Shown here: positions 2,277 to 37,603 of the stretch, in pieces | Position numbering within the stretch: the first letter of the stretch is position 1 | How the letters are laid out: every line of letters starts with the position of its first letter | NCBI RefSeq assembly: GCF_003977755.1 | Contig: NZ_RQWN01000001.1 | Coordinates: forward strand, 124,001 to 188,000 | Length of the DNA stretch: 64,000 nt | Origin: Haloterrigena salifodinae | GTDB taxonomy: Archaea; Halobacteriota; Halobacteria; Halobacteriales; Natrialbaceae | Direction of reading: 5' to 3' | Program-made: the position numbers and the translations under genes | Notes under the pieces: model-generated | What the model saw: only the letters and a program-made list of their open reading frames with translations | Databases searched by the model: none | Told to the model about the DNA's origin: nothing

Positions 2277-3227
2277 TCAACGCAACCCGAGCGTCGCGGC
2301 CACCTGATCCCAGAGGCCGTCGCCGACGTCGGCGACCGCCGCCAGCTCGTCATTCGAGAGTTCGAAGTCGAAGATGTCGGCGTTCGCTTCGATGTGCTCG
2401 CGGCTCGAGGCCTTCGGAATCGCGGCCACGTTGGGCTGCTGGACGAGCCAGCGCAGCGCGACCTGCGACGCCGACTTGTCGGAGGGCTCGCCGATCTCGG
2501 CGAGTCGGTCGTCGCCCGGAACGGTCCCCTCCGCGAGCGGGCTATACGCCGTCAGGCAAACGTCGTGATCGACGCAGTACTCGAGCAGGTCGTCCTGGTG
2601 GTGGTACGGGTGGTACTTCACCTGGTTCGCGACGATCGGCGTCTCGGACAGTTCGAGGGCCGACTCGAGTTGCTCCACCGAGAAGTTGCTGACGCCGATA
2701 TGATCGACGGCGCCCTCCGTCTGCAGGTCGTTCATCGCGGCCAGCGTTTCCTCAAGGGGCGCGCGGTCGCTTGGTGCGTGGAGCAAGAGGAGATCGACCG
2801 CCTCGAGTCCGAGTCGCTCGAGGCTCTCGCGGGTCGATTCGATGACGTCGTCGCGCGCGGCGTTGTCGGGGTGGACCTTGGTGACGACGAAGACGTCCTC
2901 GCGGCTCACGTGTCGCTTCTCGCTCGCGGTTTCACCGCTCGCATTCCCGGGATCCTCGCGTTGCTCGGCTCCCGACGCTCCCGCTCGCTTCTCCGAGGAC
3001 TCACTGCGTTCGTCCTCACAGCCGATGCCGCTAGCGGCGAGGGCCTCGCCGACGGCGCGCTCGTTGTCGTACATCTGGGCGGTGTCGATGTGTCGGTAAC
3101 CGACCTCGAGGGCGGTCTCGACGGCCCGCCGGCACTCGTCGCCGGTCATTCTGGCGGTGCCGAATCCGAGCGCCGGAATCTCGGCGTTCCCTGCGGTAAC
3201 GGTCGCTGTCGAGACGGTTTCGCGCAT
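2277..3227 (-). CDS. Aldo/keto reductase with an internal low-complexity insertion
   Basis: An AKR-family NAD(P)H oxidoreductase of 316 residues, about 35 longer than the AKR at 62645-63487. Catalytic features: GYRHIDTA with Asp48, Tyr53 (AQMYDNE), Lys117 (VVTKV) and the His in LLLLHAP. SNFSVEQLE, the NQVKYHP strand and C-terminal IPKASS (cofactor phosphate binding) are present. ATG 3227 (MRETV) is chosen because the family starts here; ATG 3257 would add ten atypical residues. Residues about 70-106 are a hydrophilic Glu/Ser/Arg/Ala insert between helix 2 and strand 3, absent in the second AKR of this window. Its DNA (about 2910-3020) contains palindromic repeat sequence. The insert falls in a surface loop, so the enzyme is probably still active. 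Substrate unknown. Confidence 0.9.
   Translation of the reverse strand: MRETVSTATVTAGNAEIPALGFGTARMTGDECRRAVETALEVGYRHIDTAQMYDNERAVGEALAASGIGCEDERSESSEKRAGASGAEQREDPGNASGETASEKRHVSREDVFVVTKVHPDNAARDDVIESTRESLERLGLEAVDLLLLHAPSDRAPLEETLAAMNDLQTEGAVDHIGVSNFSVEQLESALELSETPIVANQVKYHPYHHQDDLLEYCVDHDVCLTAYSPLAEGTVPGDDRLAEIGEPSDKSASQVALRWLVQQPNVAAIPKASSREHIEANADIFDFELSNDELAAVADVGDGLWDQVAATLGLR
2910..3020 (-). repeat. Palindromic element inserted in frame inside the aldo/keto reductase gene
   Basis: This stretch encodes the extra residues 70-106 of the reductase. It contains a 6-bp perfect stem, GAGGAC (2995-3000) and GTCCTC (3012-3017), around the loop TCACTGCGTTC. It also carries CGCTCGC-type repeats and CCCGGGATCC-like palindromic sequence. 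The stem-loop layout matches one of the hairpins between dnaK and dnaJ (GGAAGGC, TCACTGCCGTCC, GCCTTCC at 29486-29511), so both appear to be the same family of short interspersed element. Its boundaries are inferred from the protein alignment with the second reductase. Confidence 0.55.
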
Positions 3228-3376
3228 GGCTCCGGTTTTCACGCCGGGAGCCATCAACCCCGGGCCGGCAAAGAGAGTCGCGACCGCCGCTGGTTCGGGG
3301 ACGGGCCTGACGGGTGGCTCGAGTCGACTTGAGCGGGACCGAACCGTCGAACCGAAGCGACGCGGCGACGGCGGGC

Positions 3377-5641
3377 TCAGGCGCCGTCGCTGGTCACGTT
3401 CGTACTGGACGTCTCGTTGTCGGTCGCGTTCTCCTCGGACGTGACGTTCTCGTCCGCGACGCTCTCGTTGTCCGAGACGTTCCCGTCCTCGGTGATCGCC
3501 TCGTCCTGCGTGTCCTCGGTCGCGTTCCCGTTGGCCTCCTGGTTCCCGGATTCGACCGCTTCGTCCTCCGCGGGCGGTTCCAGCGACTCGCCTTCTCCCG
3601 GCGGGACGATCTCGAAGACCGTGCCCGTGTCGCCCTCGGGCACGCCCATCTGATTGGCGAGCACGTACACGTTGCCGTCGAGGTCCTGCCCGAACTGCCG
3701 GACGAAGTACGGGAACGAGCCGTCTTCGGAGCCGGCGAGCTGGAGTTCCTCCATGTTCCAGAGTTCGTCTCGCGGGACGACCTGCTCTTGGCCGCTACCG
3801 CCGACGTCTGCGCCGCCCTCGACCGTTTTGTTGGTCGCGTTCGTCTCGTTAGTCGCGTTCGTCTCGTTCTCGAAGCCTCCCTCTTCGATGCCGCCCTCGC
3901 CGGACGTCACGTTCTCCGGCATCTCCTGGTCGTCGGGACTCATCTCTTCGGTCTGGTTGCCACTGCCGTCGCCGGTCATCCCTCCGGCCCCGTCACTCGG
4001 CTCTGAAGCGGCGAGGATTCGCCCCTGCGGGGACTGTCGTGCCGGGTCAGCCGTCCAGTCGCCGAAGACGTACTTCCCGTCGAGGTCGTCGATATCTCCG
4101 GCCTCGTAGACGTGGCCGCCGATAATCGTGATGCCGACCACTTGCTCCTGGTAGACGTGGGGATACTCGACGATCGGGTCCTGCAGTTCCTGTCCGTCGT
4201 ACGGCGGTTCGTCGGACGCCGAGTCGGGGCAGTCCTCCGGCGGCTGGCTGGGGCTCTCCGTGCTGAAGCAGTGGGTTCCCTCCTTGACGTTCCAGCCGTA
4301 GTTGCCGCCTGCCTCGACGAGATTCGCTTCCTCGAAGAGGTCCTGACCGGCGTCGGAAACGAACAGCCGTCCGTCGCTGTCGAATGAGATGCCGAAGGGG
4401 TTCCGGAATCCCCACGCGTAGTGTTCGTCGAGCCCCTCGTCGGAATCGACGAGCGGGTTATCCTCCGGGATGCCGTACGGTCGATCCTCGCCCTCCTGAT
4501 CGACGTCGACGCGGAGAACGCTTCCGAGGAGGTTCTCGCTGACGTCCTGGCCGTTCCCGCCCGCGTTGTCGTCGTACCAGTCCTCGACGTGACCCTCCAT
4601 GTCATCGTTGGCCCCGCCGCCGTCGCCCATCGGGACGTACAGGTAGCCGTCGGGGCCGAACGCCATCGGACCGGCGTCGTGGTTGTACTGGGGCTTCTGG
4701 AACTCCATCAGAACCCGTTCCGAGTCGGGGTCGCCCGCGCTCATGTCCTCGGTCGTCCGGAACTCGGAGACGACCTCGACGTGGCTCCAGCCGTCCGGCG
4801 TCTCGTCGTTCGGCGGCGCGCTGTAGTGGACGAAGAAGCGGCCGTTTTCCGCGAACTCGGGATGGAACTCGACGCCGAGCAGTCCCCGCTCGTCGTAGTC
4901 CTGATTCGGATCGGCGTAGTCGCCCTCGAACGTGCCGAGTTCGACCAACCGGTCGCTGACGTCGAGGAACGGCTCGTCCTGCAGGCCGTCTCCCGTAACG
5001 ACCCAGAGCTCGCCTGTCTGGTCGGCGACGAAGTATCGCTCCTGCTCCTCGTCGGCGACCGCCATGTCCGTCGGCGCCGTCATCCCTTCTGCGACCGTTC
5101 GCACGCCGATCTCCGCGCCGGGATCGAAGAATGCTGCGGCCTCCTCGTCAGTCGCTTCGTCCTGCTCCGCCCCGCCCGCACCACCGCCGCCGACCGAAAT
5201 CTCCCCGCGCATCGTCGCCGAATGGGGCTCGCAGTAGTACTCGGCCATCTCCTCGGTCGCCTCGAACTCGAGCGTCTGCGTCTCGCCCTGCTCCATCATG
5301 AGTTCCGTCCGCTCGAGTTCGTCGCCCTCGCCGCTCTCGATGACGAAGTTGTGGGGCTGCCCGTCGAGGTTCTCCCACGTGAGTTCGTAGGTAGTCCCCG
5401 CCTCGAGTTCCAGTGTCGGGTTCGTCTCGCCGGCGATCGCCTCAGGCGAGACGCCCTGCCAGCCGCTGACTTGGCCGCCCAGTTCGATCGTCTCGGTCTC
5501 TTGGGCGGCCGCGAGATCGCCTAGCGCGACGACGCCGCCGGCGGCCGCGGCGGCCTGCAACAGGCGCCGGCGGGACGTCGCGGTATAGTCGGTCGCTGAT
5601 TCGGGTACCGAATTCGGCCGCTCATCGGATCGCTCGCTCAT
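3377..5641 (-). CDS. Tat-exported cupredoxin + PQQ-type sugar dehydrogenase (glucose/sorbosone dehydrogenase family)
   Basis: A 754-residue exported oxidoreductase. Residues 23-46 form a Tat signal (SRRRLLQ, hydrophobic Ala/Gly core). Residues about 50-152 are a type-1 copper domain with ligands His97 (QPHNF), Cys137, His140 and Met144 (YYCEPHSATM). After an acidic linker comes the six-bladed propeller of the soluble glucose/sorbosone dehydrogenase family (GVEFHPEF, AWGFRNPFG, GGNYGWNVKEG). Long acidic inserts with NET/NAT repeats interrupt the last blade (about residues 570-620), and a tail rich in N-x-S/T sequons follows. Fusion suggests that electrons from sugar oxidation pass directly to copper. 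ATG 5641 is preferred because the Tat motif then sits 22 residues in. Substrate and cofactor are family inference. Confidence 0.88.
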   Translation of the reverse strand: MSERSDERPNSVPESATDYTATSRRRLLQAAAAAGGVVALGDLAAAQETETIELGGQVSGWQGVSPEAIAGETNPTLELEAGTTYELTWENLDGQPHNFVIESGEGDELERTELMMEQGETQTLEFEATEEMAEYYCEPHSATMRGEISVGGGGAGGAEQDEATDEEAAAFFDPGAEIGVRTVAEGMTAPTDMAVADEEQERYFVADQTGELWVVTGDGLQDEPFLDVSDRLVELGTFEGDYADPNQDYDERGLLGVEFHPEFAENGRFFVHYSAPPNDETPDGWSHVEVVSEFRTTEDMSAGDPDSERVLMEFQKPQYNHDAGPMAFGPDGYLYVPMGDGGGANDDMEGHVEDWYDDNAGGNGQDVSENLLGSVLRVDVDQEGEDRPYGIPEDNPLVDSDEGLDEHYAWGFRNPFGISFDSDGRLFVSDAGQDLFEEANLVEAGGNYGWNVKEGTHCFSTESPSQPPEDCPDSASDEPPYDGQELQDPIVEYPHVYQEQVVGITIIGGHVYEAGDIDDLDGKYVFGDWTADPARQSPQGRILAASEPSDGAGGMTGDGSGNQTEEMSPDDQEMPENVTSGEGGIEEGGFENETNATNETNATNKTVEGGADVGGSGQEQVVPRDELWNMEELQLAGSEDGSFPYFVRQFGQDLDGNVYVLANQMGVPEGDTGTVFEIVPPGEGESLEPPAEDEAVESGNQEANGNATEDTQDEAITEDGNVSDNESVADENVTSEENATDNETSSTNVTSDGA

Positions 5642-34965: not shown

Positions 34966-34974
34966 TGTTTACCT
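34966..34974 (+). promoter_or_regulatory. TATA box before the 52-aa membrane peptide
   Basis: TGTTTACCT centred about 28 nt before ATG 34998, predicting a leaderless transcript that begins with the small gene and runs into the permease. Confidence 0.55.
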
Positions 34975-34997
34975 ATCCCTGGGTTGAATAGCTAACA

Positions 34998-35156
34998 ATG
35001 GTTTCGACGCTGGTACTCGGAGCCGTCCTCACGCTGCTGGCGTGGGTGTGGCTCCAGCTCGCCGTTCTTCACGGAAAATACGTCGTCGATAAGATCGCCG
35101 CGGGCGAGTACCGGAAGGGGCCTCTGGACCGACCCGACGGAGAGGAGTCGCCATGA
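34998..35156 (+). CDS. Small single-span membrane protein coupled to the APC permease
   Basis: A 52-residue protein: MVSTLVLGAVLTLLAWVWLQ gives one transmembrane helix, followed by a short polar tail (HGKYVVDKIAAGEYRKGPL...). Its stop codon overlaps the permease start as ATGA (35153-35156), so the two are translationally coupled. A purine-rich GGAGAGGAG within its last codons can serve as ribosome-binding site for the permease. A TATA box sits 28 nt upstream. The tight coupling suggests a small subunit or regulator of the transporter; this is inference. Confidence 0.7.
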   Translation: MVSTLVLGAVLTLLAWVWLQLAVLHGKYVVDKIAAGEYRKGPLDRPDGEESP

Positions 35157-37603
35157 GCGAGGCCGAAGGGCTGCCGGGACACGAGCACGATGAGGAACTG
35201 GCGCGCGACATGTCACTGTTCGACATCACAATGATCGGCGTCGGGGCGATGATCGGCGCCGGCATCTTCGTACTCACGGGACTAGCCGCGGGACAGGCGG
35301 GCCCGGGTCTCGTGATGGCCTTCGCGTTCAACGGCTTCATCACGATCTTTACGGGGATGGTGTACGCCGAACTGGGATCTGCGATCCCGGAGGCCGGCGG
35401 CGGGTACCTCTGGGTCCGGGAAGCGCTCGGCCGATCACAGGCGTTCCTTGCGGGGTGGATGTCGTGGTTCGCCCACGCCGTCGCGGGATCGCTGTACACC
35501 CTCGGATTCGGCGCCTTCGTCCACCTGCTCCTGACCGACTACTTCGGCATCCCGCTCTTCGAGCCGATCGACTTGGCCGTGCTCGCGATCGGTCCGGAAA
35601 AGGTGTTTGCCGCGTTCGCCGGCGTCCTGTTCGCGTACATCAACTACCGGGGGGCGAAGGAGACCGGCCTCGCCGGGAACGTCGTTACACTCGTCAAGAT
35701 CACCGTCATCCTCGTACTCATCGCGTTTGGCCTCGGGTACATCGTCGGTCACCCGGCCGAGGCGAGCGGTCGGTTTCGCCCGTTTCTTCCCCGGGATTTT
35801 AGCGGCATCTTCATCGCGATGGGGCTAACGTTCATCGCCTTCGAGGGGTACGAGATCATCGTCCAGTCCGGCGAGGAGGTCGTCGAGCCGAAGAAGTCGG
35901 TTCCGAAGGCGGTCTTCTACTCGATGTCGATTGTCGTTACGATCTACATGCTCGTAGCGATCGTGCTCATCGGTGCGGTGTCGGTGACGCCCGGGCTGTT
36001 CGAACTGGCCCAGGAGGGCGCCGCCTCCGGCGGGCACGGTGCGACCAACCTGCCGCCGGTTCCGGCGAATATCGAGGACGCGGCCGTCTGGGAGATCCTC
36101 GGGCATCTCGGCGAGTTCGGTCTCGCGCGGGCCGCCGGACAGATCATGCCGTACGGGACGGTGGTCATCCTCGTGGCCGGTATCTTCTCGACGTTGTCGG
36201 CGCTGAACGCGACGACCTACTCCTCGACGCGTGTGTCGTTCGCGATGGGGCGGGACCACGTTCTTCCGGACGCATTCGGATCGGTCCATCCCGAGAAACA
36301 GACGCCCCACGTCGCGACGGCGCTCTCCGGGGCGCTCATCATCTTCATGGCCGTCGTGCTACCGATCGAGGCCGTGGCGGCAGCGACGGACGTGATGTTC
36401 CTTCTGCTCTTCTTACAGGTGAACTACGCCGCGATCGTGATCCGCCGCGAGTGGGGCGATCAGATCGACTACGGTTACGTGATGCCGTACTTCCCCTACG
36501 TCCCGATCATCGGCATCCTCACGAAACTCGCCCTGGCCGTCTACCTGTTCAACTACAGTCCGCTGGCGTGGTACGGCGCGCTCGCGTGGATCCTCGTCGG
36601 CGTCGGCATCTTTTTCCTGTACTCCCGCGGCCGCGTCCGCGAGACGGAAGCCAGGGAAGAAACGCGATTCATCACCGAGGAACGCGCGCCGGTGGATCGC
36701 GAGTATCAGGTGCTTGTTCCCCTCGCAGACCCGAGTAACGCCGAGCAACTGATCCGCGCGGGAAGCGCGATCGCTCGCCGCGAAGACGGAGAACTCCTTC
36801 TGACGAGCGTCGCAACGGTACCCGACCAGACGCCGCTCTCAGAAGGTCGCCGCTACGCGGACGAGCAGGGAGCGCTCCTCGACAACGTGCTGGAATACAT
36901 TCCCGACGACGTCCCCGCCCACCGGACCGTGACGATCGGCCACGACGTCGGAACGAGTATCAACAACGTAGCCTATCAGCGCGATAGCGATCTCGTCGTC
37001 ATGGGCTGGCGGGGGAGACGCAAACGATTCTCGGACTACGCGCTCGGTTCCAACATCGACACCGTCGTCGAGAACGGACCGTGTGACGTCGCCGTAATGA
37101 AGACCAACGGAGCGCCGGCATCGAGCCGTGTTCTCGTGCCCACGGCCGGCGGACCCCACGCGGACCTCGCGGAACGGTTCGCGATCGCGTACGCGGATAT
37201 CGGTGCCGACGTTACGCTCTTTCACGCCGTCACCGACGGCGATGCCGACGCCGCCGAGTCGCACCTCCGCGAGCGAAAGGAGGCGTTGGCCGACGCCGGT
37301 ATCGACGTTGACATCGATACCGCGATCGCAGAGCGTGACGAGATCGACGACGCGATCCTCGAATACGCCCGCGACGGTGGGTTCGACACGATCGTCATCG
37401 GAGCGGCCGGTGAGGGCATCCTCCAGCGCGTCCTGTTCGGCGAGATCCCGGAAACGATCGGCGAGGAGTTCGACGGAACGGTCGTCATGACGCGGAAGCA
37501 CCGCCCTGTCCAGTCGTCCCTGAAACGGGTCGTTCGGAAGTGGGTCGGAAAGGGCGCGCGAGCGACTGATATCGGACCGTCGCCGTCGCGCTCCGACGAC
37601 TGA
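35153..37603 (+). CDS. APC-superfamily amino acid permease with tandem C-terminal UspA domains
   Basis: An 816-residue fusion. Residues about 20-490 hold 12-13 membrane helices with APC hallmarks (GVGAMIGAGIFVLTGLAAG in helix 1, FAFNGFITIFTGMVYAELG in helix 2, GLTFIAFEGYEII in helix 6). The remaining 320 residues carry two UspA-like cytosolic modules: first about 510-645 (REYQVLVPLADPSNAEQL, VVMGWRGRRKRFSDYALGSN), second about 650-795 (SRVLVPTAGGPHADLAERF, DTIVIGAAGEGILQRVLFGEIP, with a nucleotide-loop-like GxxGxG pattern). The UspA units probably sense nucleotides such as ATP or c-di-AMP and control transport; that is inference from family knowledge. It starts inside the upstream small gene. 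Confidence 0.92.
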   Translation: MSEAEGLPGHEHDEELARDMSLFDITMIGVGAMIGAGIFVLTGLAAGQAGPGLVMAFAFNGFITIFTGMVYAELGSAIPEAGGGYLWVREALGRSQAFLAGWMSWFAHAVAGSLYTLGFGAFVHLLLTDYFGIPLFEPIDLAVLAIGPEKVFAAFAGVLFAYINYRGAKETGLAGNVVTLVKITVILVLIAFGLGYIVGHPAEASGRFRPFLPRDFSGIFIAMGLTFIAFEGYEIIVQSGEEVVEPKKSVPKAVFYSMSIVVTIYMLVAIVLIGAVSVTPGLFELAQEGAASGGHGATNLPPVPANIEDAAVWEILGHLGEFGLARAAGQIMPYGTVVILVAGIFSTLSALNATTYSSTRVSFAMGRDHVLPDAFGSVHPEKQTPHVATALSGALIIFMAVVLPIEAVAAATDVMFLLLFLQVNYAAIVIRREWGDQIDYGYVMPYFPYVPIIGILTKLALAVYLFNYSPLAWYGALAWILVGVGIFFLYSRGRVRETEAREETRFITEERAPVDREYQVLVPLADPSNAEQLIRAGSAIARREDGELLLTSVATVPDQTPLSEGRRYADEQGALLDNVLEYIPDDVPAHRTVTIGHDVGTSINNVAYQRDSDLVVMGWRGRRKRFSDYALGSNIDTVVENGPCDVAVMKTNGAPASSRVLVPTAGGPHADLAERFAIAYADIGADVTLFHAVTDGDADAAESHLRERKEALADAGIDVDIDTAIAERDEIDDAILEYARDGGFDTIVIGAAGEGILQRVLFGEIPETIGEEFDGTVVMTRKHRPVQSSLKRVVRKWVGKGARATDIGPSPSRSDD

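Follow-up and report, generated by a model that had tools for sequence, protein, structure and literature searches.

In Haloterrigena salifodinae, a very small open reading frame runs into the start of an amino acid permease gene. Is this frame a gene at all, and if so, does its product work together with the permease? We addressed this using a 64,000-nucleotide stretch of contig NZ_RQWN01000001.1 (the window), in which all features given below lie on the plus strand, and compared the locus with related loci in other genomes.

The gene pair and its arrangement

The small frame encodes 52 amino acids, starts with ATG, stops with TGA and occupies positions 34998-35156. Its stop overlaps the start of the permease gene (35153-37603, 816 amino acids) in the shared ATGA at 35153-35156. 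The one-span frame and its overlap are thus exactly as given in the original prediction. Within the peptide gene and 5 nt 5′ of the permease ATG is a Shine-Dalgarno-like GGAGAGGAG (35139-35147), which may serve initiation at the permease. The peptide had also been credited with a TATA box of its own. The candidate in the window, TTTACCTA (34968-34975, 30 nt 5′ of the peptide ATG), is weak, but by eye TTTTATA or TTTTAATA is found about 30 nt 5′ of the peptide ATG in 8 of 11 close orthologues. An element at this distance fits a leaderless message that begins at the peptide.

The permease matches PF00324 (148 bits) and PF13520 (144 bits) above the curated cut-off, and its C-terminal tail has two Usp (PF00582) stretches, the better-scoring of which covers residues 520-650 (36710-37102). 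In NCBIfam it scores best against models of amino acid transporter subfamilies, with a score below the cut-off even for the top model, and its best match in the PDB by sequence is GkApcT (5oqt, 6f34). Lys182 of the permease (codon at 35696-35698) aligns with Lys191 of GkApcT, the residue that couples protons in that transporter (PMC5803215), so the permease appears to carry the TM5 lysine of proton-coupled CAT/ApcT-like permeases. That haloarchaeal APC transporters can carry Usp domains was pointed out in 2011, together with a proposed regulatory function for them (PMC3102087). Four APC genes and one peptide were found in the source genome.

Among 23 same-strand peptide-permease pairs, the genes overlap by 8 nt in 13, by 4 nt in four and by 11 nt in four, and are 4-5 nt apart in two (the start in the +5 nt pair, L122/L164, was read by eye). 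Nineteen of these pairs, including that of the window at -4 nt, fall between -8 and +10 nt, a range that Huber et al. took as predictive of termination-reinitiation (PMC10666635); the other four are at -11 nt. In Haloferax volcanii, subunits of complexes were reported for 253 of 560 gene pairs within this range, and for 51 of 910 pairs whose spacing exceeds 20 nt (PMC10666635). Moreover, translation was strictly coupled in 13 of the 14 overlapping pairs tested in H. volcanii and Escherichia coli (PMC6728339). The coupling by a 4 nt overlap that was originally proposed is likely, but the length of the overlap is not conserved, and Halalkalicoccus paucihalophilus has the two genes side by side in divergent orientation. 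The divergent arrangement speaks against a pure leader function of the frame. A fixed peptide:permease stoichiometry, which might follow from coupling, is conjectural.

Conservation and distribution of the peptide

The small frame is a real gene under purifying selection. Its pooled pN/pS across 11 orthologues of the close clade is 0.232, whereas the other two frames have values of 1.31 and 2.25. A chance ORF in GC-rich DNA is ruled out by the pN/pS value, by these frame controls and by the similarity-free control described below. The main motif in the alignment, with some exceptions, is G-x2-LT-x2-AW-x2-L-x3-V-x-HG[KR]YV, and the helix is followed by the conserved stretch HGKYVVDKIAxGEYxKGP. 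All 25 members examined have one hydrophobic span, a 19-residue stretch whose mean hydropathy is 1.89 or higher in every case. In the window peptide this is residues 5-23 (35010-35066, mean Kyte-Doolittle 2.23). None of the 25, the window peptide included, has a lysine or arginine ahead of the span, so the peptide is predicted to sit N-out, C-in.

Neither the window peptide nor the 16 members scanned matched a Pfam or NCBIfam family. Weak matches to holin, viral 2b, LapA, OadG, PgaD and phosphatase models involved single members at E-values of 0.03 or higher and were taken as chance. The peptide profile had no match at E ≤10 among all PDB chains of at least 20 residues. RefSeq annotation of the peptide is uneven, as some records list a hypothetical protein and others have no entry for it.

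We searched 292 genomes of the class with the window peptide alone as query (E ≤0.1). Of the 21 genomes matched, seven had strong matches (E ≤3e-7); the 14 weak ones (E 0.007-0.09) were left out of the counts as chance. In the six strong genomes besides the source, the peptide adjoins a close permease, except that one copy in Halalkalicoccus has a permease fragment beside it. A peptide profile matched 18 of 391 class genomes at E ≤0.01, 11 of them strongly (E ≤2e-14), and its seven weak matches (E 0.0018-0.0098) were likewise set aside as chance. With the permease as query, 42 of the 391 genomes were matched at E 1e-180, 11 with at least 57% identity and the rest with 45-51%. The strong profile matches and the permeases of at least 57% identity fall in one and the same set of 11 genomes, although this agreement is not fully independent because the profile was built partly from permease-adjacent peptides. 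The single-sequence search and the similarity-free control are independent tests. In the 391 class genomes, every strong peptide match lay at a permease gene or a fragment of one.

In a sample of 294 genomes from the phylum, the peptide occurred outside the class only in one genome (G408), in two copies that each adjoin a permease; two other weak matches in this sample were left out as chance. G408 is taken to be Candidatus Methanohalarchaeum thermophilum (locus L035), a member of the Methanonatronarchaeia. Overall, the peptide adjoins 24 of the 24 permease genes found with about 54% identity or more, which come from the eleven haloarchaeal genomes of the 391, further named haloarchaea and one Methanonatronarchaeia genome. 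Three of the 24 permease genes are damaged, one by an insertion (L160) and two by broken frames in the Methanohalarchaeum assembly (L164, L165). In Haladaptatus caseinilyticus (L157), the peptide frame has no ATG, GTG or TTG start. Absence of the small frame ahead of orthologous permeases had been named as the observation that would count against the prediction, and the peptide is in fact kept. The pair is patchy, as five same-genus genomes in the 391-genome sample have neither gene. It also occurs in plasmid records, and the genes that flank it vary between loci.

A permease tree with 98 rows gathers the 22 peptide-bearing rows into one clade of their own (SH-aLRT 100). The peptide was found in none of the 76 rows outside this clade, among them bacterial APC-Usp permeases and 28 rows of the haloarchaeal sister group. 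It is thus a feature of one clade, and not of APC-UspA permeases in general as the original wording implied. A similarity-free control gave the same picture. We looked for any hydrophobic frame of 40-110 residues whose end lies no more than about 13 nt from the start of the permease, and found one in 18 of 20 clade rows and in none of 74 other permease rows (the window and L035 are not among the rows, and two more were omitted for their short flanks). The two negative clade rows are L031, with a divergent gene, and L157. We also compared 28 loci of the sister haloarchaeal clade by eye for a conserved small partner, and saw matches among near relatives only and none clade-wide.

Proposed role and known small partners of transporters

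We consider it probable that the peptide serves this clade of APC-Usp permeases as a dedicated accessory subunit, which would bind the transport domain and stabilise or tune the permease. A one-helix subunit is the simplest account of a small protein that is tied to one permease clade, conserved at the protein level and predicted to share both message and membrane with the permease, where its conserved tail would point to the side that carries the N-terminus and Usp domains of the permease. Transcription would begin at or near the peptide ATG, and a ribosome would translate the peptide, stop at its TGA and reinitiate at the overlapping permease ATG, so that one message yields both proteins. 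The peptide may then insert as a single helix, N-out and C-in, and pack on the transport domain, which would place its conserved cytosolic stretch on the face of the membrane where the Usp tails and N-terminus of the permease also lie. Its most likely effect would be to stabilise or assemble the permease, or to tune its activity. Of the earlier suggestion that the peptide is a subunit or regulator of the transporter, dedicated partnership is well supported: the peptide is conserved, it co-occurs with one permease clade only and it stays beside the permease after the change of orientation. As judged from sequence, the subunit reading is likely but unproven.

Several observations count against a subunit. 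Sister APC-Usp permeases do without the peptide, the overlap varies in length among loci, the L157 frame lacks a start codon and one Halalkalicoccus copy stands beside a truncated permease. The 31 clade-specific permease residues include clusters at 93-96 and 123-130 and no clear lipid-facing patch. A peptide interface could therefore not be read from these 31 positions, and no obvious site emerges from them. Finally, MgtS, the small protein bound to GkApcT, is oriented opposite to the topology predicted for the peptide.

The complex of GkApcT and MgtS (PDB 5oqt/6f34) is the closest parallel, as it joins an APC/CAT-type permease to one small single-span protein, and GkApcT has the TM5 lysine in common with the window permease. 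The original prediction knew of no small partner for APC permeases with UspA tails, but a small single-span protein had already been seen on an APC permease, MgtS on GkApcT (PMC5803215). In the crystal, MgtS packs on TM5; in GkApcT without MgtS, the same account describes a melting temperature unresponsive to cholesterol hemisuccinate, and a lower total alanine uptake at similar initial rates (PMC5803215). These effects make stabilisation the leading idea for the peptide. There are also clear differences. MgtS is described as an E. coli protein caught in heterologous expression and not co-encoded, whereas the window peptide is native and co-encoded; the N-terminus of MgtS faces the cytoplasm (PMC5803215), whereas that of the peptide is predicted to be outside. 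The GkApcT chain, at 471 residues, is too short for the Usp tails that the window permease has. As far as sequence comparison goes, the peptide does not appear to be homologous to MgtS.

Other transporters with small or one-span partners are more distant. Heteromeric amino acid transporters likewise combine an APC permease (the SLC7 light chain) with a one-span partner (the SLC3 heavy chain), and SLC3 proteins have a large ectodomain. They are glycoproteins and disulphide-linked to the light chain (PMC5803215). The window peptide, with 52 residues, no cysteine and no ectodomain, is not a protein of this type. MetS-type small subunits of bacterial sodium symporters are tiny one-span proteins encoded with a LeuT-fold amino acid transporter. 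Their partner is an NSS transporter, unlike the APC-Usp permease of the window, and no small-subunit family was matched at E ≤1 when 16 peptide members were compared with Pfam and NCBIfam. MgtR, MgtU, SgrT, AcrZ and similar regulators are small proteins that act on a membrane transporter (PMC10710835), but on other transporter families, and no sequence relation to the peptide was found.

Could the peptide act against the permease? A negative regulator or turnover factor resembling SgrT or MgtR would bind it only to inhibit it or pass it to a protease. Some small proteins are known to inhibit transporters or to make them unstable (PMC10710835), and because sister permeases are kept without the peptide, it need not be structurally required. 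However, constant co-expression from overlapping genes would be odd for a conditional inhibitor and the peptide is retained across the whole clade, and we regard this role as unlikely.

Two further explanations seem to us very improbable. The frame might be a translated leader that mainly delivers ribosomes to the permease start, by leaderless initiation and reinitiation, with an idle product. The overlap, the SD-like site, the TATA-like element near the peptide ATG and the strict coupling of overlapping pairs in H. volcanii and E. coli (PMC6728339) would all suit a leader, but selection on the peptide acts at the amino acid level and its motif is conserved as far as another class. The divergent, uncoupled Halalkalicoccus copy retains the motif too, and the similarity-free control indicates that other permeases manage without such a leader. 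Alternatively, the peptide might be an independent small membrane protein that by chance shares a mobile gene pair with the permease. The pair is patchy and often on plasmids, so it would move as a unit, and its neighbours differ. Against chance association are the adjacency of the two genes, which outlasts the flip in orientation, and the finding that in the 391 class genomes no strong match to the peptide stood apart from a permease gene or fragment.

A more far-reaching proposal is that prokaryotes have, in this pair, a native equivalent of the heteromeric amino acid transporters, with an obligatory one-span subunit whose conserved cytosolic tail connects the Usp domains with the transport domain. 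We hold this to be speculative and rather doubtful; were it true, a stress or nucleotide signal sensed by Usp would gate uptake. The peptide is a new family, while a one-span small protein on an APC permease is already known. Our searches of open-licence PMC text turned up no native small partner described for APC-Usp permeases, and a native, co-encoded one-span partner of an archaeal APC permease appears to be new. Such a native, clade-defining partner would come with built-in controls in the form of its peptide-less close relatives. The pair is present in Haloferax prahovense (L025), and Haloferax has established genetics. In this genus one could then test what a single helix does on APC transporters, as in GkApcT-MgtS and SLC7-SLC3, and what Usp domains do when fused to a transporter.

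Rearranged and damaged loci

Several loci depart from the usual arrangement. On Halosolutus gelatinilyticus plasmid NZ_CP095492.1 (L161, 3459-4404), the permease is reduced to its Usp tail, which is 86% identical to that of the window permease; there is no transport domain and no peptide, and just upstream are UPF0175 and DUF3368 genes. The second Halalkalicoccus copy (L163, G215 contig 15, 3835-4752) has an intact peptide frame that is divergent from a truncated permease, in which similarity ends after residue 110. The permease gene of Natrinema gelatinilyticum (L160) is broken by about 900 bases at about 3223-4123, and both Methanohalarchaeum permease copies in G408 (L164 and L165) shift frame inside the gene, through either an assembly error or real decay. 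Halorhabdus amylolytica (L027) has part of another permease, 66% identical, just upstream of the pair (4001-4345). In Haloarcula pelagica (L159, 1887-2153), a small protein annotated as bacteriophage holin is encoded between the peptide-permease pair and an APC permease gene in divergent orientation.
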